This document shows positions 4,571 to 24,634 of a stretch of DNA of 24,634 nucleotides, piece after piece (positions within the stretch are counted from its first letter, which is position 1; every line of letters starts with the position of its first letter). The translations under genes were made by a program, and so were the position numbers. Origin of the DNA: a virus; IMG/VR virus record IMGVR_UViG_3300012964_000055, positions 1-24,634 of that record; one strand, 5' to 3'. The notes under the pieces were generated by a model. That model saw nothing but the letters and a program-made list of their open reading frames with translations. It was not told the origin of the DNA and ran no database searches.

Positions 4571-4869
4571 AACCAAAAGAAATAGCAACTAAACTATCTT
4601 TAAAAGTATTATTTTCCGACAATCATTTTTCTATCTGTCGCCTGAAAGATTTATTGGATTTGAATGAAATAACTCCAGATTCAGAATTACTACTAATTCT
4701 TCAAGCGCTGCATTGTGTCCCTTATTCTGATATGGATTCAGAATTTAAAAAATGGTTATTCGATAACGTTCTGCTATTATTTGGAACTTACAGTAGTGTT
4801 CTTGGATTTGATTTTCAAAAAATAATGGATGTAGTTTCGCAATCAGAATTGCCTGAGGATAGAACATGA
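4567..4869 (+). CDS. Hypothetical small protein upstream of the Rad50-like gene
   Basis: A 100-residue acidic protein, overlapping the previous gene by ATGA at 4567-4570 and the Rad50-like gene by ATGA at 4866-4869. It is rich in Leu, Phe and Asp and probably helical. Its base composition is more AT-rich than the flanking genes, which may mean a later acquisition. No known domain is recognised. Tight coupling to the nuclease genes suggests a shared time of expression rather than a proven common function. Confidence 0.55.
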   Translation: MKPKEIATKLSLKVLFSDNHFSICRLKDLLDLNEITPDSELLLILQALHCVPYSDMDSEFKKWLFDNVLLLFGTYSSVLGFDFQKIMDVVSQSELPEDRT

Positions 4870-6083
4870 TCCAGCAACTTGAATTACAAAACTTCCAGTC
4901 GCATAAAAAAACGACGCTCAACTTGCACGCCAACGTCAACGCCATAGTAGGCGAAAGCGACACCGGCAAGACCGCTATTTTACGCGCCTTAAATTGGCTG
5001 TATTACAATCGACCTTCTGGCGTGGAATTCGTATCGCATTGGAACCAAGACGACAAAGGCAATCCAATAGAACCTACTTACGTCCGCGCCGATTTTACAC
5101 CCGATTGTTTTGTGCGGCGGGTACGCGAAAAGGCGTTGAACGGATACGATTTAAACGGGCAGATGATGGAAGCGGTCAAGACAGACGTGCCGGAAACCCT
5201 ATTGCCGATTTTCAACATATCGGAAGTAAACATTCAGCGTCAAATGGACGCCCCGTTTTTGCTGTCGGAAAGCAGCGGCGAGGTCGCCCGGTTTTTCAAT
5301 CGCATCATACGCCTTGACCTTATCGACCGCGTGTTGAGCCGGGCAGAACAAATGCGGCGGGCGCTTAAAAAGGATGTCGAAGCGGCAGAAGCGGAGGAAA
5401 TCCGGCTGACGGAAAGCCTGAAAACGTTTGCGTGGACGGATGCCGCCGAAACGTTATTGAAAAAAGCGGTAAACGTGGAAACGCGATTGGCGGAAAATAA
5501 AAAACAATACGAAACCCTGTTTGAAAAATCGGCGGTTTTGCATATCGACTTAATGACAATTGAAAAATCGAAGTGGATTGTTGAGGCGGAAAATCTGGTT
5601 GCGGAATATGTGGCAGTGGAAAAATCGCTGGCAGGTAATAAGCAAAAACTTAATTTACTTTCCGCTGCTAAAGTAAATTTAGAAAATAATAAGTTTACTT
5701 TGAAAAATTCTAACTGGATTCCCAAAGCCGAAAAACTACTCACACAATTCGTAAACGATGAATGGAACTTATTATTGCAACGAAACTTAAAAACCGAATT
5801 AGAAATCGCAAAACAAACATACGAAACAAACATGGAAACACTCGCAACACTTCCCGACATACCGAAAACCGAAACGCTCGTCCGGGAACTGGAAGCGCAA
5901 ATCAAGACCGTAACCGAGTCTCAACGCAGGTACGCCGGGTTGAAATCGACGTGGATGCAAATCAATAAACTGGAAGCCGATGCGTTAGATGCGGCGGCGG
6001 AATTGGAGCGGCTGGCAAATCAGTTGCCGGATACCTGCCCCACATGCGGACAAGAATGGAATCATGAGGAGGCGTGCGTATGA
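4866..6083 (+). CDS. Rad50/SbcC-like ATPase, N-terminal half (Walker A plus coiled coil, ending at zinc hook)
   Basis: A 405-residue protein. The start (IQQLELQNFQSH) is the usual Rad50/SbcC first strand and its Q-loop-side fold. Walker A is GESDTGKT at residues 29-36, followed by a lobe I core to about residue 160. A long coiled coil with a repeated Lys/Glu pattern runs from about 160 to 385. The protein ends 11 residues after CPTC (391-394), the Rad50 zinc-hook motif. Signature motif, Walker B and H-loop are all absent here and occur in the gene at 7434-8045. In the family these parts normally lie on one chain, with the hook at the middle. The likely role is the ATP-driven DNA-end-processing complex with the Mre11-like product encoded immediately downstream (ATGA overlap). 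Confidence 0.88.
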   Translation: MIQQLELQNFQSHKKTTLNLHANVNAIVGESDTGKTAILRALNWLYYNRPSGVEFVSHWNQDDKGNPIEPTYVRADFTPDCFVRRVREKALNGYDLNGQMMEAVKTDVPETLLPIFNISEVNIQRQMDAPFLLSESSGEVARFFNRIIRLDLIDRVLSRAEQMRRALKKDVEAAEAEEIRLTESLKTFAWTDAAETLLKKAVNVETRLAENKKQYETLFEKSAVLHIDLMTIEKSKWIVEAENLVAEYVAVEKSLAGNKQKLNLLSAAKVNLENNKFTLKNSNWIPKAEKLLTQFVNDEWNLLLQRNLKTELEIAKQTYETNMETLATLPDIPKTETLVRELEAQIKTVTESQRRYAGLKSTWMQINKLEADALDAAAELERLANQLPDTCPTCGQEWNHEEACV

Positions 6084-6982
6084 GATTTATTTTATCGGCA
6101 GACTATCATGCCCGCCCCGACATGCCCCGTTGCCGCCTTGACGCGGACTGGATGGCGACGCAACGCGCCTGCTTGACAGAAATCCGCGAAATCGCAAACA
6201 AGTTAAAACTCCCGCTGGCAATAGTGGGCGACATTTTCCACGTGCCGAAAGTGGGCGACCGCGTGCGCAATATGTTTGTCGAGTTTTTGCACTCCATAAA
6301 CGCAGGCGTTTGCCTGATTGCCGGAAACCACGACCTGCCCCATCACGCATGGGAAAACGTCATGGACTCCAGTTTTGGTGCGATAAAATTGTTGATTGAA
6401 TCGCCAGACGTGCCGAAAATAAATCACTTAAATCGGATAGGCGTTGCCGCGCATTTTGGCACTGAACAAATGGCCGACCCTCACGCCGATACGTCGATTG
6501 TATTCACACACCGCCTTGTATTCCCGGACGCCTTGCCACATTGGGCGCAAAACGATCCCGACGCCATTACTGCATCGGACTTACTCAAACAATACCCGTC
6601 AGCGAAATGGATTTTCACTGGCGACTACCATCACGCCTTTATTTACGAGGAAAACGGACGTTACGTCGTGAATCCTGGTTGCGTAAACCGGCAAAGTGCA
6701 AAAATGAAGGATTACAAACCGCTCGTCTATATTGTCGACACCGACGCGGGAACCATAGATCCTAATTACCTGAAGGCCGATACCGGCAAGATGGTGACTG
6801 ACGCATACTTGCGAGTAGAGGAGGAACGGGAAGACCGCATCACCGCGTTTGTGGATAGCGTGCGCAAATCGGAAAACGTGAGCCTGGATTTTCTGGGCAA
6901 CCTGAAATCCGCTATGTCGGCAAACAAGGAACTTGAACCTGTAGTGCGGGGAATGATTGAAATGCTGATAACGGAGGAATGA
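6080..6982 (+). CDS. Mre11/SbcD-like metallophosphoesterase nuclease subunit
   Basis: A 300-residue protein. The start is ATG 6080, overlapping the previous stop (ATGA) and preceded by GAGGAGG. An in-frame GTG two codons earlier is less likely. The metal-binding motifs of calcineurin-like phosphoesterases appear in order: D8-x-H10, GD (50-51) with H54, GNHD (82-85), H144 in FTHRLVF, and the GDYHH motif (181-185). These are followed by NPGCVNR (198-204), the motif that follows the last metal site in SbcD-type enzymes. The C-terminal part (about 220-300) would carry the Rad50-binding region. It should act with the split Rad50 pieces as a Mn-dependent exo/endonuclease on DNA ends, in phage recombination or genome processing. 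It lies between the two Rad50 halves. Confidence 0.9.
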   Translation: MRFILSADYHARPDMPRCRLDADWMATQRACLTEIREIANKLKLPLAIVGDIFHVPKVGDRVRNMFVEFLHSINAGVCLIAGNHDLPHHAWENVMDSSFGAIKLLIESPDVPKINHLNRIGVAAHFGTEQMADPHADTSIVFTHRLVFPDALPHWAQNDPDAITASDLLKQYPSAKWIFTGDYHHAFIYEENGRYVVNPGCVNRQSAKMKDYKPLVYIVDTDAGTIDPNYLKADTGKMVTDAYLRVEEEREDRITAFVDSVRKSENVSLDFLGNLKSAMSANKELEPVVRGMIEMLITEE

Positions 6983-7182: not shown

Positions 7183-7437
7183 ATGAAAATGGAAGCAAAA
7201 ACAATAAACATAGAGGAACTGAAAACGAAAATCGAAGCCGCTAAGGGCAAAAAAAGCCGCGCCGAGGGTGCGATTGAACAAGTCACCGCACAGGTGAAAA
7301 AGGATCACGGCATAACTGATCTGTCGGAAATCCCGGCGAAATTAACCGAGTACGAAACCGCAATCCAGCGGGACGAAACCCGGTTGGCGGAACTCGTGGC
7401 GGAAATTGAGGCTGTGACGGATTGGACGGCGATATGA
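7183..7437 (+). CDS. Short coiled-coil protein, possible detached Rad50 coiled-coil segment
   Basis: An 84-residue protein preceded by AAGGA; ATG 7183 or the in-frame ATG at 7189 could be used. Nearly all residues fit a coiled coil (KTKIEAAKGKKSRAEGAIEQ and onward), with a short break at HGITDLSEIP. It overlaps the next gene, the Rad50 C-terminal half, by ATGA (7434-7437), so the two are made in step. It looks like a piece of the descending Rad50 coiled coil that has become a separate chain. This is inference from position and composition. Confidence 0.6.
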   Translation: MKMEAKTINIEELKTKIEAAKGKKSRAEGAIEQVTAQVKKDHGITDLSEIPAKLTEYETAIQRDETRLAELVAEIEAVTDWTAI

Positions 7438-8045
7438 CCGCCCTTACCGATTACCAAAACAAACTAACCAGAGCCCAGGAACGCAAACGCATAGCTACTG
7501 AATCGCTTTCGCAGGTATCCGCCAAAATCGGAAAACTGAAAACCGATGCCGCGAACCTGGAAAAGGCGCAGGCGTTTATACAAGGTGTGGCGCGGGATAC
7601 GCAGGAACACCTGCGTTTTCACATTGAGAACATAGTGCAACTTGGCCTTGACTCCTGTTTCCCAGGTAAGTATAAATTCCAACTCATTTTTGAAATCAAG
7701 CGCGGGCAAACCGAGGCGCGGCTGGTATTCGTGAACGCCGCCGGACATGAAGTGTCACCTATGGACGCCAACGGGGGCGGGGTTGTAGACGTGGCGGCGT
7801 TTGCGTTGCGGATTGCCGCGTGGACGCTGGGCAAGACCGACAACCTGATTGTGTTGGATGAACCCTTCCGGTTTTTGAGCCGGGACTTGCGACCCCGCGC
7901 CGCCGCTATTATGAGCGAACTATCGAAGCGGCTGAACTTGCAGTTTATTGTTGTGACGCATGACGCGGATATTGTAGAGGTTGCCGACCGCGTGTTTACG
8001 GTTACGCAGGCCGAGGGCGTAAGCGGTGTTGCGGCGTCGGGGTAA
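7434..8045 (+). CDS. Rad50/SbcC-like ATPase, C-terminal half (signature motif, Walker B, H-loop)
   Basis: A 203-residue protein from ATG 7434, overlapping the previous stop; an in-frame TTG at 7422 lies upstream but the ATGA coupling favours 7434. A coiled coil runs over residues 1-60, followed by the lobe II fold. The ABC signature appears as NGGG (113-116) before VVDVAAFALRIAAW. Walker B is LIVLDEPF (138-145, D142 and E143), followed by a D-loop-like stretch and the H-loop THD (175-177). There is no Walker A, which is supplied by the gene at 4866. The chain should pair with the N-half to form one ATPase head. It ends the coupled nuclease operon. Confidence 0.88.
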   Translation: MTALTDYQNKLTRAQERKRIATESLSQVSAKIGKLKTDAANLEKAQAFIQGVARDTQEHLRFHIENIVQLGLDSCFPGKYKFQLIFEIKRGQTEARLVFVNAAGHEVSPMDANGGGVVDVAAFALRIAAWTLGKTDNLIVLDEPFRFLSRDLRPRAAAIMSELSKRLNLQFIVVTHDADIVEVADRVFTVTQAEGVSGVAASG

Positions 8046-8053
8046 AAGTGATA

Positions 8054-8083
8054 TTGAAAAATAAATTGGTATAAACGTATAAA
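8054..8083 (+). promoter_or_regulatory. Candidate sigma-70-type promoter before the Lar-like gene
   Basis: TTGAAA (8054-8059), an 18-bp spacer and TATAAA (8078-8083) fit a housekeeping promoter. The next gene starts at 8142, giving a leader of about 50 nt. This separates the cassette-region genes from the nuclease operon. Confidence 0.5.
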
Positions 8084-8141
8084 ATAACGGGGCATGAGGC
8101 CGAAGACTATTGATTTGTAGTAAGTTTGTAGGAGGAATGTT

Positions 8142-8480
8142 ATGAATAACTATCATATTGAGGTATTCAATGAGATTGGTACTAAAGTTGATGAAAAGTC
8201 AAATGTACCAGCCTGGACGAGATGGGAGGCGTATATTAGTGTTGCAAGTAGTTTAAAGTCTCACAGTAAGTGGGATGCAGAAATAGAACTCCTGCCTTGC
8301 CCTGTATGTGGGGGAGAGCCTATGGCTTGCGAAGACGAAATAATGAACGGTATGGATAGAACTTACTTTTACGATTGCTGTAATCTAGAGTCTACTGACC
8401 ATCGAAGTATAGATGTAGCTATGTCTAATTGGAATACAGCAGTTACGAATTACGTTTCGGAGAAGAAAAAGAGTGAGTAA
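8142..8480 (+). CDS. Lar-like restriction alleviation zinc-ribbon protein
   Basis: A 112-residue protein with a strong GGAGGAAT ribosome binding site. The central part reads LLPCPVCGGEP at about residues 49-59, then a second zinc-ligand region YDCC near residue 80, and ends with AMSNWNTAVT. This is the usual layout of Lar/phage restriction-alleviation zinc ribbons (CPxCG ... C ... W-N). Such proteins modulate type I restriction in the host cell in the Rac-prophage example. The first 45 residues are an extra, unassigned segment. The gene is clearly AT-richer than the nuclease genes. An attC-like site follows 88 bp after its stop, so it may be the first cassette, although no matching left boundary was found. 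Confidence 0.7.
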   Translation: MNNYHIEVFNEIGTKVDEKSNVPAWTRWEAYISVASSLKSHSKWDAEIELLPCPVCGGEPMACEDEIMNGMDRTYFYDCCNLESTDHRSIDVAMSNWNTAVTNYVSEKKKSE

Positions 8481-8567
8481 CCAAAGGTACTAATCCTGAC
8501 AAGGGGAAGAGTACTGCGATTAATTGAGGAATTGAACAAATTGATACGGATGAAACGCCCGTTCTTT

Positions 8568-8669
8568 CGCACAACGTTCCGGCATAAATGACGGCTGCCA
8601 AAGGCAACTGTGGTTGAACGAAGTGAAACCCGATGCCGCAAGGCCGATGCTTTTATGCCGTGTTAGGTG
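8568..8669 (+). repeat. attC-like integron recombination site A
   Basis: The left core is CGCACAAC (8568-8575), then GTTC. Stem arm CGGCATAAA (8580-8588) is perfectly complementary to TTTATGCCG (8652-8660), then T and the right core GTTAGGTG (8662-8669), which fits GTTRRRY. The internal segment folds further, with GGTT/AACC around ACGAAGT and GCC-GCAA-GGC. Length is about 102 nt, within the known attC range. The segment between the Lar-like and nucleotidyltransferase-like genes is non-coding. Confidence 0.65.
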
Positions 8670-8694
8670 ATTGGCGGCATTCAAGGAGAATTAC

Positions 8695-9033
8695 ATGGCA
8701 AAAACAATAGATCAAATTAACACCGAAGGCAGAGCGGTCTTTTACGCGGTATTATGGCCTTCACTCCGTAAGGCGGCAATTGAATGCGGCTGGGGTTTGG
8801 CTTTACATGGCAGCATGGAATCCGATTTGGATTTAATGGCTATGCCGTGGGTAGAAAACTGTAAACCAGTTGAAGAACTAATTAAGGCGTTATCGGATTG
8901 CTTAGGTAATACCAAATGGAAAGATCACCATTTAATCCCGCATCACGGGAAGCCCCATGGACGAGTAGTCTACTCTTTAAGTATTATGGGTGATTGGTAT
9001 CTGGATGTAAGTTGTATGCCGCCTTTCACCTAA
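8695..9033 (+). CDS. Nucleotidyltransferase-like phage/cassette protein
   Basis: A 112-residue protein. ATG 8695 is chosen over an in-frame TTG at 8671 because AAGGAG lies at 8683-8688. Residues about 32-48 (LALHGSMESDLDLMAMPW) carry a pattern like the nucleotidyltransferase motif G-S followed by D-x-D. Downstream are HHLIPHHGKPHGRVVYS and a final strand with LDVSCMP. Similar small proteins are common in phages, where no activity is established to my knowledge. The stop codon lies inside the left core of the following attC-like site, as is frequent for integron cassettes. Catalytic activity is uncertain because the chain is short for the fold. Confidence 0.6.
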   Translation: MAKTIDQINTEGRAVFYAVLWPSLRKAAIECGWGLALHGSMESDLDLMAMPWVENCKPVEELIKALSDCLGNTKWKDHHLIPHHGKPHGRVVYSLSIMGDWYLDVSCMPPFT

Positions 9034-9087
9034 CGTTTGCGGATTAGGCGACGTGCGCAGCATGTCTGCCTATCCGCTGTTGCCAGA
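9027..9087 (+). repeat. attC-like integron recombination site B
   Basis: The left core CACCTAAC (9027-9034) is the exact complement of the right core GTTAGGTG of site A. Then GTTT and the arm GCGGATTAGGC (9039-9049), which pairs with GCCTATCCGC (9068-9077) except for one extra T on the left arm. An unpaired extrahelical base of this kind is a hallmark of attC. T and GTTGCCAGA (9079-9087) follow. The size of 61 nt is close to the shortest known attC sites. Confidence 0.7.
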
Positions 9088-9100
9088 TGCGATTGGTTAG

Positions 9101-9106
9101 TATAAT
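9101..9106 (+). promoter_or_regulatory. Possible -10 box ahead of the second cassette gene
   Basis: TATAAT at 9101-9106 lies within a palindromic ATAATATATTAT, 20 bp before the ATG at 9127. GGAGG at 9114-9118 is the ribosome binding site. No convincing -35 is visible. Cassette genes occasionally carry their own promoters, so this is a weak but reasonable candidate. Confidence 0.3.
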
Positions 9107-9126
9107 ATATTATGGAGGACAATTAT

Positions 9127-9411
9127 ATGCAACAAGTATTCACAAACGGATCATTAGGCGCGGCAAGACCATTTGACCCAGAATTGCTCGAAAAATTATT
9201 ACAGGATAAGAATGTTGATCATGTTAGATTATTTGACATGGAACGTGGTAATAAAGTCGGGATTCCTGAGATAGAAGAAAAAAACATTGAAATGACCGTT
9301 GAGCGCATTGTCGATGAAAAATTAAAAGACCGCGCTATGGTAGAGAAACAACATAGGGAACTTGAAATATTAGTTAAACAGTTTAACGATAAAAACACCA
9401 ATCGTTTCTGA
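9127..9411 (+). CDS. Hypothetical cassette-encoded protein
   Basis: A 94-residue protein. I use ATG 9127, nine bases after GGAGG; the ATG at 9112 overlaps that ribosome binding site and is unlikely. The N-terminal part is mixed (FTNGSLGAARPFDPELLEKL), and residues 50-90 are strongly charged and helical with a coiled-coil look. No motif is recognised. The stop codon lies in the left core of attC-like site C, so the gene fills its cassette. This placement supports it being a real gene. Confidence 0.6.
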   Translation: MQQVFTNGSLGAARPFDPELLEKLLQDKNVDHVRLFDMERGNKVGIPEIEEKNIEMTVERIVDEKLKDRAMVEKQHRELEILVKQFNDKNTNRF

Positions 9412-9493
9412 CAACGTTAGTTTTAACCGAAGTTTTTTGTACTCAAAAAATTTGGGCGAAACGAAGTGAAGCCGGTTAAAACTTGTTGTCGGC
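9407..9493 (+). repeat. attC-like integron recombination site C
   Basis: The left core TCTGACAAC (9407-9415) matches the complement of the cassette's own start GTTGCCAGA at 8 of 9 bases. The arm AGTTTTAACCG (9419-9429) pairs perfectly over 11 bp with CGGTTAAAACT (9473-9483), followed by T and GTTGTCGGC (9485-9493). The loop side contains ACGAAGTGAA, a 10-mer also present in site A (around 8618-8627), which shows that the sites are related. Confidence 0.68.
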
Positions 9494-9561
9494 TGTGCCA
9501 CATCGAAGGATAAAACGTAAGCCATGGATGGCCGAGGAAATAAAATAAGAAGGAAAAGAAA

Positions 9562-9918
9562 ATGGATTTAAAAACAAGATACGAAAAAGAGACAGGTAAA
9601 TATAGACCAACTTTAAGTAAATGCGTAACATTAAACGATTATAATAAAGAATGGGCGAAATGGTTGTCATCATACTTAGAGTGGGTTGAAATTCAATTCC
9701 CAAGATTGGTAAGCGTGAAAGATAGATTGCCGAATAAACCTGGTCATTATTTGGTTTATGCTCCATTATCGTTCCCAAAAAATTGTAGATTCGTTGTGGC
9801 TGAATTCTATGATGATAATAATACATTTTATTCCGAATCATCAGATCAACCGATGGAAGATGTAACGTATTGGTCAGAATTACCTATATTTGAGCGAGGC
9901 ACGGAGGCCGAGCCGTAA
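9562..9918 (+). CDS. DUF551-like phage protein
   Basis: A 118-residue protein preceded by AAGGAAAAG. The second half has the order VSVKDRLPNKPGHYLVYAP, then VVAEFYDD, then VTYWSELP. This is the layout of DUF551 domains, small phage proteins of unknown function (W/V-S-V-x-D-R-L-P ... YLV ... V-T-H/Y-W-x-x-L-P). The first 45 residues are a helical extension. It is AT-rich like the other cassette genes and is the last rightward gene before the convergent late operon. A degraded attC-like left core follows at 9928-9936. Confidence 0.65.
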   Translation: MDLKTRYEKETGKYRPTLSKCVTLNDYNKEWAKWLSSYLEWVEIQFPRLVSVKDRLPNKPGHYLVYAPLSFPKNCRFVVAEFYDDNNTFYSESSDQPMEDVTYWSELPIFERGTEAEP

Positions 9919-9927
9919 CTTGGCATT

Positions 9928-10006
9928 GACGACAACTACATTTATCCGCAATGCGCAAAATGTCGAAATGTCGAGTTAATGCGAAATATGTGATAATTCT
10001 TATAAA
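9928..10006 (+). repeat. Degenerate end of the last cassette, attC remnant
   Basis: GACGACAAC (9928-9936) matches at 8 of 9 positions the complement of GTTGTCGGC, the start of this cassette. The usual GTTN does not follow. A weak fold TTATC ... GATAA with an inner CGCA ... TGCG is possible, together with a tandem AATGTCGA repeat, but no right core is recognisable. It may be a decayed attC or the scar where the array joins phage DNA. Confidence 0.35.
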
Positions 10007-10017
10007 AGGTTTGCCAG

Positions 10018-15877: not shown

Positions 15878-17326
15878 TTATACCGCAGTCACGTCCAGCC
15901 GCGACACGTCTAACTCCGCGATTTCTCGAATACCAATTGGAATGTTTACAGTTACATAAGATCCTGGAGGCGTCAAAGAGGAGGTAGCCGCAATAGCTCT
16001 TGTAGCGGACTTAATACCGGGTACGCTGTAAATCGGAATGTTTAATTTATCTATCAAAATGTCGATACTGACTTTTTGATTTTCGTTTGCCCAGTTTACA
16101 ATTGCGGATTTTACCAAGTCCACGCCATTTGTCGGGAACGCTTCCTCAGTGGATTTTGTGAGTACGATTTGCGCCCATGCGTATTTCGGGGTAGGGCGGC
16201 TGAATTTTACGGTTTGCGGGTCTCCGTTGCTGTCGGTTATTAATACCGAAGTGGCGCCATAAAACGCGATACCCGACGGGGATAATAACCACAGTCGTTG
16301 CGCTACATCGGCATCGGTTCCGCCTTGAATCACGACTTCCAGTGAGTGCGCGTCGCGCCCGTCCGCATCCACGGAGTCGGTTCGGTTTGAATACACTTTG
16401 CAGTAAGACACGTTTGCTACTTCTTGTAACAATCGCGCTTGTATAGCCGGATCGGTACTCCATCCCAAAGTGGACAACGCCCCGCGCCGGCGCACTCGCA
16501 ATTCGTTTGAGGTTTCCACGTTTCGGCCAGCGGTTCCGGCGGTTAGGTTCGTGATTTGCGTTAATCCGGGAACATTTTGCGTGATTGCAGTCAGTGAACC
16601 AATAGGGGCTTCGACTTTACCGGCAACGTCGGCTACGTAAACGCCCGGACTGCCGATTTTATCGAATTGAAGTGTGGCAGTAAGCGCCACGGAAAACGCA
16701 GTAGTGCCGTCATCCGATACAACGCGCAACGTGCTGCCGATCAGCGAGGCGGTTATGGCAAGGCTGCCCGCATTTATTGCCGTTATTAGTGCCGTAACGA
16801 CTATGAGTTTTGTATCCAAACTTACAGCGGTGTACGTGTATGGGATTGAGTTTATAGTTACAGTGAATACTTGCGCAGCTACTGGGTCGCTGGGCAGGGA
16901 TATTATTATGTCGGCAAAATTGGCTGCGGAAATTGTTATGCCCGCACTGAGTAAAAACAAAGTGGCATTGGGAAAACTGGCTTGGTGTCCTACTGGAATA
17001 GGGGTTCCGGAACTGCCGTAAAGCACGGCTGGAATTACCGTTTTAGTGGCTCCAAGTGGTTTAATGCCCACCAATCCCGCAATGCCTGCCAAGGATACCC
17101 CGGTTGCGGTATCTGGATTGAAACTGGCGTGGACGGCTCCTGCCAATTCCCAAAGCTGCGTAAATTTAAGCGCTTGATTGTTTACGTGGTTTCCCATGCG
17201 GGAAGTTTCGGACAAATCTACCGCACTGCCAAATAAAGCTTGCGCATCGGCTTCGAGTTCGGATTTGATGACGGCAAAAGGTTTTGGCACCCATCCATTG
17301 ACAGTTAATCCGTATTGAGTCGCCAT
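15878..17326 (-). CDS. Baseplate J-like wedge protein
   Basis: A 482-residue protein. The start overlaps the upstream stop as TAATG, with GGAGG 11 bp before it. Residues near 265-285 (GTAGRNVETSNELRVRRRGAL) are the hallmark of the gpJ/gp47 family, and the C-terminus holds VKSAIVNWANENQ and a final beta domain. The middle (about 130-250) carries an extra beta-rich insertion. J-like proteins form the wedge ring around the hub that opens on contraction. The next gene upstream is gp25-like, the usual neighbour. Confidence 0.87.
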   Translation of the reverse strand: MATQYGLTVNGWVPKPFAVIKSELEADAQALFGSAVDLSETSRMGNHVNNQALKFTQLWELAGAVHASFNPDTATGVSLAGIAGLVGIKPLGATKTVIPAVLYGSSGTPIPVGHQASFPNATLFLLSAGITISAANFADIIISLPSDPVAAQVFTVTINSIPYTYTAVSLDTKLIVVTALITAINAGSLAITASLIGSTLRVVSDDGTTAFSVALTATLQFDKIGSPGVYVADVAGKVEAPIGSLTAITQNVPGLTQITNLTAGTAGRNVETSNELRVRRRGALSTLGWSTDPAIQARLLQEVANVSYCKVYSNRTDSVDADGRDAHSLEVVIQGGTDADVAQRLWLLSPSGIAFYGATSVLITDSNGDPQTVKFSRPTPKYAWAQIVLTKSTEEAFPTNGVDLVKSAIVNWANENQKVSIDILIDKLNIPIYSVPGIKSATRAIAATSSLTPPGSYVTVNIPIGIREIAELDVSRLDVTAV

Positions 17327-17694: not shown

Positions 17695-18368
17695 TCTGTT
17701 TTTACCTTTGTAGTCAATGCCGACGCAAAATTAGTGGGAATAGCCGTAGCCGTAGTCGTGAATGCGCTTGCAGCCGCCGCAGCCCCTGGGCCGAGCGTCG
17801 CCCCTAACCCCGTTGCGATTGCCGCCAATAACGCCGCCCACATAGGATCAAATATACTTTGAAACGTGTCAGTCATTATTTTGCGTGCCGCGCCATTTAA
17901 TTCTAAATCCCCGTTATCGTTTAAAACTACTTTCAAATTTTTATACAGCATTTCCATGCCGACGTTACTACCAACTTTCCCAAGTTTACCGGGCTGAAAT
18001 AAGCCAGGGATACAAAACGCATCGGACAAATCAAAGCGGCGCACGTCGCCAGCCTCGGTTTCGCCCCCGGACGAGTCGTTAATCCATTTTTCGAGGCTGG
18101 AACTGGATACGATTATCAAGCAGCCGTCCCCTTTTTTAAGTGGGAACTGAAACACCGCTTCCGCCGTGCCAGGAAACACTACCGGTACTTTTGAGATAAT
18201 CGGCATGGATTTTATAGAACCGTCCGCAAACTCGGTTTTGATAGAAGGCAATACCGATACCGTTTTTTTAGCGGCATCATACGTTTGAATAATTCCAGGC
18301 ATGGAAAAGTGCATTGTCGCCAGTTGAGCGGTTAGAACGTGCCGGATTGTAGTGTCTAAAGTTTCCAT
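17691..18368 (-). CDS. Gp138-N/gpV-like baseplate spike
   Basis: The true start is ATG 18368, overlapping the upstream stop as TAATG. This gives 225 residues; an upstream in-frame codon at 18446 lies within the preceding gene. Residues about 20-115 form an OB-like fold (MPGIIQTYDAAKKTVSVLPS, VPVVFPGTAEAVFQFPLKKG, DGCLIIVSSSSLEKW, RFDLSDAFCIPGLF) as in the Gp138 N-terminal spike domain. A beta segment with VVLNDNGDLELNG follows, then a long hydrophobic Ala/Gly-rich region at about 170-210. That tail is unusual for a membrane-piercing spike, which normally ends in a rigid beta helix. Confidence 0.78.
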   Translation of the reverse strand: METLDTTIRHVLTAQLATMHFSMPGIIQTYDAAKKTVSVLPSIKTEFADGSIKSMPIISKVPVVFPGTAEAVFQFPLKKGDGCLIIVSSSSLEKWINDSSGGETEAGDVRRFDLSDAFCIPGLFQPGKLGKVGSNVGMEMLYKNLKVVLNDNGDLELNGAARKIMTDTFQSIFDPMWAALLAAIATGLGATLGPGAAAAASAFTTTATAIPTNFASALTTKVKTE

Positions 18369-19267
18369 TACGCTAAATTTCCTGTATCGGCTAAATTGCC
18401 GGATTGCAGCGGCAAAGGTTCTGGCGCAAGGGCTAAGGCTTCGCATTCTGCGTTGGCGTCACCGTCTCGGTTGTCCGCTGTGAGTTTGCACGACAATATT
18501 ACCGCGCGCCCGGACACGTCCGCCGATTCTATTTTTACGGTGCTGCTGGGTATGAGTTGCGGGAATATGAGCGATACTATTTTATAATTGCCTTTGAATG
18601 CTTTTTTGCCGCCTGTCAGTGCCGCGTCTTGTTCCACGGGGGAAATGCTGAGTAAGCCGGTGTTGGGAGTGAGTAAGAGTTCTTGCACGGCAACATCTCT
18701 ATAAGACTCGCCCTCTTTGTAAAAATAAAGTTGGTTGTTTTGAATTGTCCATTGGTATTTGTTTTTTGCGACTACTTTAGATAAAGCCTGTATAGTTTTG
18801 CCGATAAAAGCAAACCCGCCGGAATAATTACCGGTAAATTTCGGGATGGGGCTGGCTACTGGCAACCCCAAGTTATCAATAAGGTCTTGTAATATATTAG
18901 CATCTAATGCGTTTTCGCCATAAGAAGCGTCAAAATTTTTTTCTAAAGAATTTGAAAGTCCGTCAAAGGCTTCTATTTCCAATATTTTTTCAGTGGACTC
19001 TTTGCGATATTCCGATTTATTTATTGAACCTATAAATACGATTTGCGCCCCGCTCTCATCTTCATACCCAAATTTAATAGTGAGGGTGTTTTTTATTTTC
19101 CCAAATTTTACCGCCGTGTCTTTGCTCAAATTGTATATTTTTATCGTTGCTTTATTGGGGGTCGTGACATCTGTTTTTTCCACTTCAAACGACATAAATA
19201 AATCCGTTATACTAATTTTTTCTGTATCGGATGCGCTGGACATTTCTATTATTCGTTTAAATGCCAT
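18368..19267 (-). CDS. Baseplate hub protein (gpD-like role)
   Basis: A 299-residue protein joined to both neighbours by TAATG overlaps. The N-terminal part with VEKTDVTTPNKATIKIYNLS, then IKFGYEDESGAQIVFIGSI, is the first hub beta barrel. EIEAFDGLSNSL and a helical segment with ILQDLIDNLGLPV follow, then the second barrel (QWTIQNNQLYFYKEG). This order matches gp27/gpD-type hubs as reduced in small contractile tails. It binds the spike encoded immediately downstream. Confidence 0.78.
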   Translation of the reverse strand: MAFKRIIEMSSASDTEKISITDLFMSFEVEKTDVTTPNKATIKIYNLSKDTAVKFGKIKNTLTIKFGYEDESGAQIVFIGSINKSEYRKESTEKILEIEAFDGLSNSLEKNFDASYGENALDANILQDLIDNLGLPVASPIPKFTGNYSGGFAFIGKTIQALSKVVAKNKYQWTIQNNQLYFYKEGESYRDVAVQELLLTPNTGLLSISPVEQDAALTGGKKAFKGNYKIVSLIFPQLIPSSTVKIESADVSGRAVILSCKLTADNRDGDANAECEALALAPEPLPLQSGNLADTGNLA

Positions 19268-22863: not shown

Positions 22864-23967
22864 TTATAACACCACGGTTCCCGCGACCTGCGCTTTGTGG
22901 ATAGCCCCGGACAAGTTGCCAAGAAACTGCATATTCGGTAGCAATCGCGCGGCTTTGTTTACGCTCAACACATTCGCGGCTTTGGGCACGGTAGTCGTGT
23001 AAGACGATAACAAATTACCGTCTACGCCTTCTTGCAACGCGGCTTTGAGTTGCCCTTCTTCGGTTATGATACCGGGGTCGGTGAACGGCACTTTGTCTTG
23101 CTGAACAATCGGCGTGAACATAGATTGTTGTATTCTCGCAGTAAGCCAATCCAGCCCGTACATGATGTCCAAATATTCTCCACTACCCACCGTACCATAC
23201 TGTGTCAGGTTTACGTCCGATATTGACGTGTATATGTTTCCGCGTTTGTCGGTGACTGCCTTGGTAATTTGTGCCGGGGTCAACGTGTCTACAGGCACTC
23301 CTGCCAAGGTCTTAAATGCCCACGTTGCGCCGCCCGGTATTTTTCCGGGGGAGGCCGCAATTGCGAACATTTTACCCAGCCATGCCGCGTCTATACAAGG
23401 GTCAGTTGCGGAACCGTCGGCCTTGCTGTGATAAACCGCCGCAGACCGCTCATAAGAAGCGGCTTTAATTGCGCTGGCAATATCCAGAGGAGTGCCTGCG
23501 CTGTATGCAGAGTTGACGAAATCCGCATCAGAGGAGCTGAACACCGCCAATTTTTTATTGGTTTCGACCCATGCTGCGGCAACGATTTGCCCGGCTTGCG
23601 TTCTGTCGTCAATTGCCACGCCATACCAACCGCTGTTTTCCAACGCCATAGCCGTTAGGGCGTCTGTCCAGGTTTCCGTACCGTCAGTGCTTGTGGACTT
23701 GCGCCCGACATATACTTTGTCGATTGATGGATTTTGGGCGAAAACCGCTTGAGCCATCAAATATACGATATGCGTGCTGGCAAAGCCCGCCGCCAATACC
23801 TCTGCCGCGCTCGCGTATGTGCGCACACGCTCATTAGCACCAAAAGGCACTGTCGGATATGATTTCAAAAATTCAGCCGCCAGTAACAAGCCGCTAAAAC
23901 TTGCCATGGACGGGGTGGTGGTTTGCCGCGAAATCACCACCTGTATTATTCTGTCAATGTCTGCCAT
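22864..23967 (-). CDS. Contractile tail sheath protein (DUF3383-like)
   Basis: A 367-residue protein with GAGGAA before the ATG. The start (DIDRIIQVVISRQTTTPSMA) and the body with DKVYVGRK, WYGVAIDDR, TWAFKTLAGV, NIYTSISDVNLTQYGTV, and EYLDIMYGLDWLTARIQ follow the DUF3383 sheath plan. The length is typical for compact sheaths. Presence of a sheath directly upstream of the tube gene identifies the phage as a contractile-tail virus. Confidence 0.88.
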   Translation of the reverse strand: MADIDRIIQVVISRQTTTPSMASFSGLLLAAEFLKSYPTVPFGANERVRTYASAAEVLAAGFASTHIVYLMAQAVFAQNPSIDKVYVGRKSTSTDGTETWTDALTAMALENSGWYGVAIDDRTQAGQIVAAAWVETNKKLAVFSSSDADFVNSAYSAGTPLDIASAIKAASYERSAAVYHSKADGSATDPCIDAAWLGKMFAIAASPGKIPGGATWAFKTLAGVPVDTLTPAQITKAVTDKRGNIYTSISDVNLTQYGTVGSGEYLDIMYGLDWLTARIQQSMFTPIVQQDKVPFTDPGIITEEGQLKAALQEGVDGNLLSSYTTTVPKAANVLSVNKAARLLPNMQFLGNLSGAIHKAQVAGTVVL

Positions 23968-23988
23968 TTTATTTCCTCACTTTTAATT

Positions 23989-24634
23989 TTATGCTGGGGG
24001 GTTGTACGACCCCGCCCATTGTACTGTTTCAATCCAATTTCGACCTTTACCGCCGCCGTCATCTTTAAGCAGCAAGCCCACGCCAAAAACCACCTCAAGC
24101 AACCATCGCTTTTCATTGGTTCCATCCAACACAGCGGCTATGTTTGTGACCGTGCCGAAATCCCGGACGGCTAAAAACTTTGAATCCAGGTATTCCTGAA
24201 TAGTAGGTAAATTCAAACTATCCTGTAACGTATCCAGATAGTCTTTAGAGTTATATCCAAATCCTTGTACGGATAAAGTCAGTTCTTTTTCAATGCGCAT
24301 TTCCTGATAATCTGGCGGTTTTGCCGCTGGAAGCGCGGGCGTTGGCGGAATTTTTATGTCGGATTCCCACGCTTGCCCAAGTTGCGGAAACGCAATTGTT
24401 TTCATAGTCACATATGCTTTATCCGATATGATTCCATTTTCATCGCCCCACACGATAGGTATAGGGTTTGCGGGAACGGTTCCAGCCACAGGCGTATTTA
24501 AAGTGGCGGTATATGTTGCCCCCAGGGCGTTTATAGCCGCCAATAAATCCCCGCCAGCCGATCCAAAAGTGCCCGCGGCAATTAGCATGGACGAAGCGGT
24601 TCCGGCGGTTCCGCTCATGAATTTAATCAGACCA
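23989..24634 (-). CDS. Neck/tail terminator protein, LIC_12616-like (partial at right edge)
   Basis: The gene is read leftward from the window edge. The frame is open from the edge, and the first ATG (24618) has no ribosome binding site, so the true start is probably outside. About 210 residues are visible. The C-terminal two thirds (EMRIEKELTLSVQGFG, KDYLDTLQDSLN, NIAAVLDGTNEKRW, LEVVFGVG, WIETV) fits the neck terminator family named after Leptospira LIC_12616. It caps the tail and follows the sheath gene in the late operon. Confidence 0.68.
   Translation of the reverse strand, partial: GLIKFMSGTAGTASSMLIAAGTFGSAGGDLLAAINALGATYTATLNTPVAGTVPANPIPIVWGDENGIISDKAYVTMKTIAFPQLGQAWESDIKIPPTPALPAAKPPDYQEMRIEKELTLSVQGFGYNSKDYLDTLQDSLNLPTIQEYLDSKFLAVRDFGTVTNIAAVLDGTNEKRWLLEVVFGVGLLLKDDGGGKGRNWIETVQWAGSYNPPA

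Follow-up and report, generated by a model that had tools for sequence, protein, structure and literature searches.

A probable integrase-less array of attC-type cassettes between the early and late genes of an uncultivated tailed phage

Three short non-coding segments in a virus sequence share an inverted-repeat plan like that of attC recombination sites, and the question raised by this locus is whether they delimit integron cassettes or are ordinary phage hairpins. The window, which is the whole stretch of DNA that was analysed, is an IMG/VR virus record of 24,634 bases and represents a fragment. A sequence-only reading had described the segments as an integron-type cassette array, without an integrase, inside a phage genome. 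Our results agree with this description: the locus is very probably an integrase-less cassette array (CALIN) between the early (+) and late (-) genes of a tailed phage, with cassettes that would have originated in a host integron.

The phage setting was evident from the flanking genes, which are SbcC/SbcD-like (ATPase and nuclease) to the left of the array and encode tail proteins, the sheath and baseplate among them, to its right. The main phage genes are as follows.

4866-6083, + strand: SbcC-like ATPase, early gene
6074-6982, + strand: metallophosphoesterase (SbcD-like), early gene
7422-8045, + strand: second SMC-type ATPase, early gene, left of the array
15878-17326, - strand: baseplate wedge, late gene
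18368-19267, - strand: baseplate hub, late gene
22864-23967, - strand: tail sheath, late gene

Four small + strand genes, P1 to P4, lie between these two arms, within 8046-10017, and the GC content by cassette is 36-46%, compared with 45-46% in the two phage arms. The distance from the stop codon of the second ATPase to the opposing late gene is 1,973 bp in the window phage, whereas the same gap is about 40 bp in two relatives (L014 and L015) and 446 bp in a third (L013). No attC-like chain was found at the L013 junction, and the array is absent from all three relatives at this position. As the gap is nearly nil in relatives, the array fills an otherwise nearly empty junction. The sequence-only reading had named segments fixed in position across unrelated phages as the pattern that would speak against it, and the opposite was seen, with relatives of the phage lacking the array. 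The ATPase used as a query against 84,980 reference genomes returned no relative. Elsewhere in the window, the strongest stem belongs to a hairpin with about 22-bp arms at 1643-1745, upstream of the - strand gene 1205-1639 and without an attC partner, and a tRNA scan of the window found no tRNA.

The anatomy of the three sites was analyzed by hairpin scans; a scan without bulges misses S2, and a scan allowing bulges was therefore used. The scans reproduced the three segments with the plan and arm lengths previously described (9 bp, 10 bp with an extrahelical T, and 11 bp). The sites, and a further box to their right, are listed below.

8568-8669, + strand: S1; R'' CGCACAAC (8568-8575), GTTC, L'' CGGCATAAA, L' TTTATGCCG, T, R' GTTAGGTG (8662-8669); 9-bp arms
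9027-9086, + strand: S2; R'' CACCTAAC (9027-9034), GTTT, GCGGAT[T]AGGC, GCCTATCCGC, T, R' GTTGCCAG (9079-9086); 10-bp arms with one extrahelical T in the left arm
9408-9492, + strand: S3; R'' CTGACAAC (9408-9415), GTT, L'' AGTTTTAACCG, L' CGGTTAAAACT, T, R' GTTGTCGG (9485-9492); 11-bp arms
9930-9983, + strand: fourth R''-type box CGACAAC (9930-9936), then a hairpin, weak or partial, whose z-score of folding (-1.5 to -1.7) is not significant

Three sites in the same orientation, each with the R''-L''-loop-L'-R' plan, thus occur within 925 bp, where a CALIN is defined by at least two in a few kb. They had been considered similar in structure only; this does not hold, since the motifs AACGTT (left side), TGTT (right side) and CGAMGTG (loop) are common to all three. 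The canonical RYYYAAC/GTTRRRY consensus fits the R'' of S2 and the R' of S1. The other boxes deviate from it (GCACAAC in S1 R'', GTTGCCA in S2 R', TGACAAC/GTTGTCG in S3), and each deviation is mirrored in the partner box. An extrahelical base is present in the L stem of S2; the stems of S1 and S3 have none over their first 9-11 bp. The folding of S2 and S3 is better than that of nearly all shuffles on both strands, while that of S1 is not significantly above its shuffles (z -1.6). Stems scoring 28 or more are expected 0.64 times per strand in shuffled windows, and AAC-stem-GTT matches of about equal or higher score occur elsewhere in the window, at 1643-1745 and 23898-24028. As such hairpins are common by chance, the anatomy alone is not decisive.

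A more specific test came from the boxes themselves. An integron cassette is excised as a circle by G|TT cuts in two successive sites, and the attC site of the circle is composed of the R'' box from the right end and the TT... bases from the left end, which must pair. Because the two meet when the cassette circularises, the R' of one site has to be complementary to the R'' of the next. This pairing was absent from the sequence-only reading, and it allows a test that goes beyond resemblance. The R' of S1 (GTTAGGTG) pairs with the R'' of S2 (CACCTAAC) at 8 of 8 positions, the R' of S2 (GTTGCCAG) with the R'' of S3 (CTGACAAC) at 7 of 8, and GTTGTCG in the R' of S3 with CGACAAC after P4 (9930-9936) at 7 of 7. 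With all three junctions paired, the claim of a cassette array with attC-type sites stands.

We also applied the rule blindly, demanding that four of the five bases beyond the triplets pair. Under this rule, the window gives two links across three sites. A three-site chain appeared once among 300 second-order shuffled versions of the window and in none of 64 phage or prophage relative loci without an integron (0.80 Mb). The same chain was found in 11 of 20 Bacteroidota loci surrounding an integron integrase, in 4 of 6 class 1 integron loci and, as counted in the control set, in two of the three Qi et al. phages. The chain rule is specific to integron cassettes and constitutes the strongest evidence for the array.

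The cassettes were delimited by the predicted G|TT crossovers, and each consists of one small gene and the attC site that follows it. The cassettes and their genes are given below.

8142..8480, + strand: P1 gene, 112 aa, Lar-like zinc-finger protein of the restriction alleviation type (PF14354, E=3.9e-6, just under the Pfam cut-off; phrog_599, E=1.5e-6)
8663..9079, + strand: cassette P2, 417 bp, between the predicted G|TT crossovers of S1 and S2
8698..9033, + strand: P2 gene, 111 aa, phrog_31354 family (E=6.9e-16), HGS..DLD motif
9080..9485, + strand: cassette P3, 406 bp, from S2 R' to S3 R'' (7/8)
9112..9411, + strand: P3 gene, 99 aa (or from the ATG at 9127), orphan
9486..9936, + strand: cassette P4, right end incomplete, from S3 R' to CGACAAC (7/7)
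9562..9918, + strand: P4 gene, 118 aa, DUF551 (PF04448, E=1.6e-6, over the cut-off)

When the P2 and P3 circles were folded in silico, the bottom strand of each formed a full attC site, in which an 8-bp R box and an L stem are accompanied by two unpaired spacers, of 1 and 4 bases in P2 and 1 and 3 bases in P3. The R box of S2 forms in the circle and not in the array context. P2 and P3 each carry a single short gene, both on the same strand, and the stop codons of both genes fall inside the following R'' box (TAA at 9031-9033 in S2 for P2, TGA at 9409-9411 in S3 for P3). The proposal that the genes end inside the next site is accordingly right for P2 and P3 and wrong for P1, whose stop codon lies 88 bp before S1.

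Both ends of the array are less well defined. To the left of P1, an attC-like site was sought and nothing convincing was found, nor an R' box that pairs with the R'' of S1. The GC content over 8046-8567, the P1 region, is 38.5%, compared with 46% in the phage part to its left, and P1 is probably a first cassette whose left boundary is not recognisable. To the right, a search for a complete fourth site after P4 gave nothing convincing; the fourth box and partial hairpin at 9930-9983 mark the right end of the array as degenerate or truncated.

The P2 family is present in 42 phage records and also occurs in Bacteroidota genomes. A search with the predicted fold of P2 gave Z scores up to 6.6, which is middling, and nearly all of the matches listed belong to the nucleotidyltransferase superfamily, so P2 is predicted to be nucleotidyltransferase-like from its motif and from the consistency of these listed matches. 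The family combines the HGS..DLD motif with this small predicted fold and is common in phages, with no known function. No P2 relatives were found in attC arrays; those retrieved sit in phages and in prophage-like regions of Bacteroidota. P3 gave no relative in Pfam, PHROG, PADLOC or IMG/VR, P1 gave none in IMG/VR, and neither P1 nor P4 has relatives among isolated phages. The cargo, comprising a Lar-like protein, a DUF551 protein and a nucleotidyltransferase-like family spread among phages, looks like phage accessory genes, and would thus be likely to benefit the phage, e.g., against restriction.

A complete integron comprises intI and attI, and no intI is present here: a search for the integron integrase (TIGR02249) gave no match in the 24.6-kb record, itself a fragment, in agreement with the earlier description of an array lacking its integrase. 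The sequence-only reading had called for a match to an attC covariance model; we scanned the sites with R1, a home-made model of this type whose training set comprised TJE1-type, class 1, Shewanella and P12002L sites, and obtained no significant match at S1-S3. R1 was likewise blank in five integrase-linked Bacteroidota loci rich in attC sites; because it is blind to these genuine integrons, its miss at S1-S3 is uninformative about whether they are attC sites and indicates only that they belong to another subtype. The subtype was searched for with the pattern AACGTT..ACGAAGTGAARCC..TGTT, which had no match in 395 sampled Bacteroidota genomes, and the pattern search found no sequenced integron with the attC subtype of the window. 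One match to the pattern, in L157, was rejected as a chance occurrence inside tail genes. Among the same 395 genomes, 107 have an integron integrase match with E below 1e-60, 105 of them over the NCBIfam cut-off (L112-L136, L137-L156). Many of these genomes carry chained attC arrays, and their contigs often stop near the array.

Further arrays were identified in other phage sequences. A relative of P4, 67% identical over 60 aa, lies inside an attC array on L072, a different and unrelated phage contig with SSB and terminase genes. The boxes of this array pair (CATCCAAC with GTTGGATG) and its circle folds fully, and the attC type, AACAACTGCTTCAAC...GTTAAGCAAATGTT, differs from that of the window and is the type found in Tetrasphaera phage TJE1. 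A single TJE1-type pattern retrieved nine IMG/VR contigs (labels L072, L075-L080, L082-L084), often with several sites arrayed, and R1 scored 27 sites in these phage contigs with E below 0.01. No integron integrase was found in the records of the nine contigs. Among the contigs checked, phage genes are present in L072 (terminase), L082 (portal and major head protein), and L076 and L080 (phage-type replication).

Several of these contigs contain half-sites, in which a TJE1-type R''+L'' is followed directly by a ribosome-binding site and a start codon (L072:5492-5516, L075, L076, twice in L082, and L083). The junction CTGACA|AGGAGGGACTATGACAAACGAAGAGCG follows different upstream genes in three contigs, as if modules had been swapped at the half-site. 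A Dam-type DNA methyltransferase gene (L082:12515-13018) adjoins a phage attC array, and Dam-type methyltransferase cargo was also noted by Qi et al. (PMC9892861).

The cassettes of the window could have entered the phage one by one, if a host integrase used phage DNA as its substrate, or recombination could have brought them in as a single block. The incomplete right end and the missing R' box on the left favour block capture or later decay. A host integrase that acts on the folded bottom strands of P2 and P3 could remove or swap these cassettes during phage replication. We infer from the sequence that the cassettes may be mobile and may be spread by the phage.

The alternative that survives best accepts the array as real and holds that its cassettes are locked: a CALIN on which no integrase acts, made up of decayed remnants whose only movement is with the phage, through homologous recombination. 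The record without an integrase, the incomplete array ends, the absence of the customary extrahelical base from S1 and S3 and the half-sites running into genes in L072, L075, L076, L082 and L083 all speak for such remnants. However, P2 and P3 keep complementary boxes and complete circular attC folds, which decay would erase. We regard this variant as a real though somewhat doubtful possibility.

A second alternative is that the segments are ordinary phage hairpins that follow small early genes as terminators or RNA structures and have AAC and GTT at their sides by chance. Stem-loops are frequent between phage genes, the two AAC-stem-GTT matches elsewhere in the window have scores similar to those of the sites, and S1 folds no better than many shuffles. 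Nevertheless, no terminator T-run closes any of S1-S3 on the coding strand, an Rfam scan of the window matched no family, and terminators give no reason for R'/R'' pairing, yet all three junctions pair; the explanation is very unlikely. An assembly artefact joining a bacterial integron fragment into a phage contig is more improbable still, for even though the record is uncultivated and the frequent ending of Bacteroidota contigs within a few kb of integrons indicates that repeats break assemblies, the array has phage genes on both sides in the gene order of L013-L015, two matching false joins would be needed, and arrays of this kind are present in several other phage contigs and in isolated phages.

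Several points do speak against an integrase-less cassette array, namely the R1 miss, the off-consensus boxes, the missing extrahelical bases, the weak fold of S1, the unclean array ends and the failure of the pattern search to find a sequenced integron with this subtype. Nevertheless, the preferred reading is the integrase-less array of host-integron cassettes. On this basis, the window adds a solid case, with an attC subtype missed by a model of the commoner types, to the few phage-borne arrays; such arrays can occupy a junction with almost no sequence in related phages, and one cassette gene (DUF551) is common to unrelated phages. Together with the nine TJE1-type contigs, it suggests that phage cassettes are commoner than the 21 phages reported to carry them in 2023 (PMC9892861), which is relevant to the transfer of cassette genes between bacteria. 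Because DUF551 occurs on two attC types in two unrelated phages and the nine TJE1-type contigs have no intI, it is conceivable, if rather unlikely, that phages have a common cassette pool distinct to them, in which small accessory genes (Lar-like, DUF551, Dam methylase, nucleotidyltransferase-like), packaged as attC cassettes, move between unrelated phages via host integrases; this possibility draws on a single gene in common and on few contigs. If true, host integrons would serve as exchange hubs for phage counter-defence genes.

Compared with known systems, the window follows the same plan and the same chain rule as the cassettes of class 1 plasmid integrons (aadA1, aadA2, cmlA, qac), which combine canonical GTTRRRY boxes, an extrahelical C and antibiotic resistance cargo, a set of traits that the window lacks. 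Sedentary chromosomal integrons, represented by the IntI-linked Bacteroidota arrays and by Treponema (PMC3607928), likewise have long-stem attC sites chained by R'/R''; unlike the window, they have intI and longer arrays, and many Bacteroidota sites have spacers of 2 and 6 bases. The sequence-only reading had also brought up spirochaete chromosomal integrons such as that of Treponema denticola; none of the present results supports a spirochaete link.

The closest systems are the CALINs of virulent phages, already described by Qi et al. 2023, who reported 17 CALINs in phages and demonstrated recombination for five sites; two TJE1 attC sites were recombined by IntI1 (PMC9892861). The TJE1-type array has the core AACAACTGCTTCAAC...GTTAAGCAAATGTT and is scored by R1, whereas S1-S3 are not scored and fall outside this type, and the spacers are 4 and 1 bases in the window, compared with 3 and 3 in the TJE1 type. 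In the chain test, the sites of Polaribacter phage P12002L form a three-site chain and TJE1 has a linked pair of two sites. The sites of the phages of Qi et al. recombined with attI1 by assay (PMC9892861), whereas those of the window are described from their sequence. Like TJE1, P12002L and Pseudoalteromonas phage PH101 (PMC9892861), the window carries an integrase-less attC cluster with single small genes in a phage genome, with the same-strand gene order also seen in TJE1 and PH101, and it is an added case of the phage CALIN.
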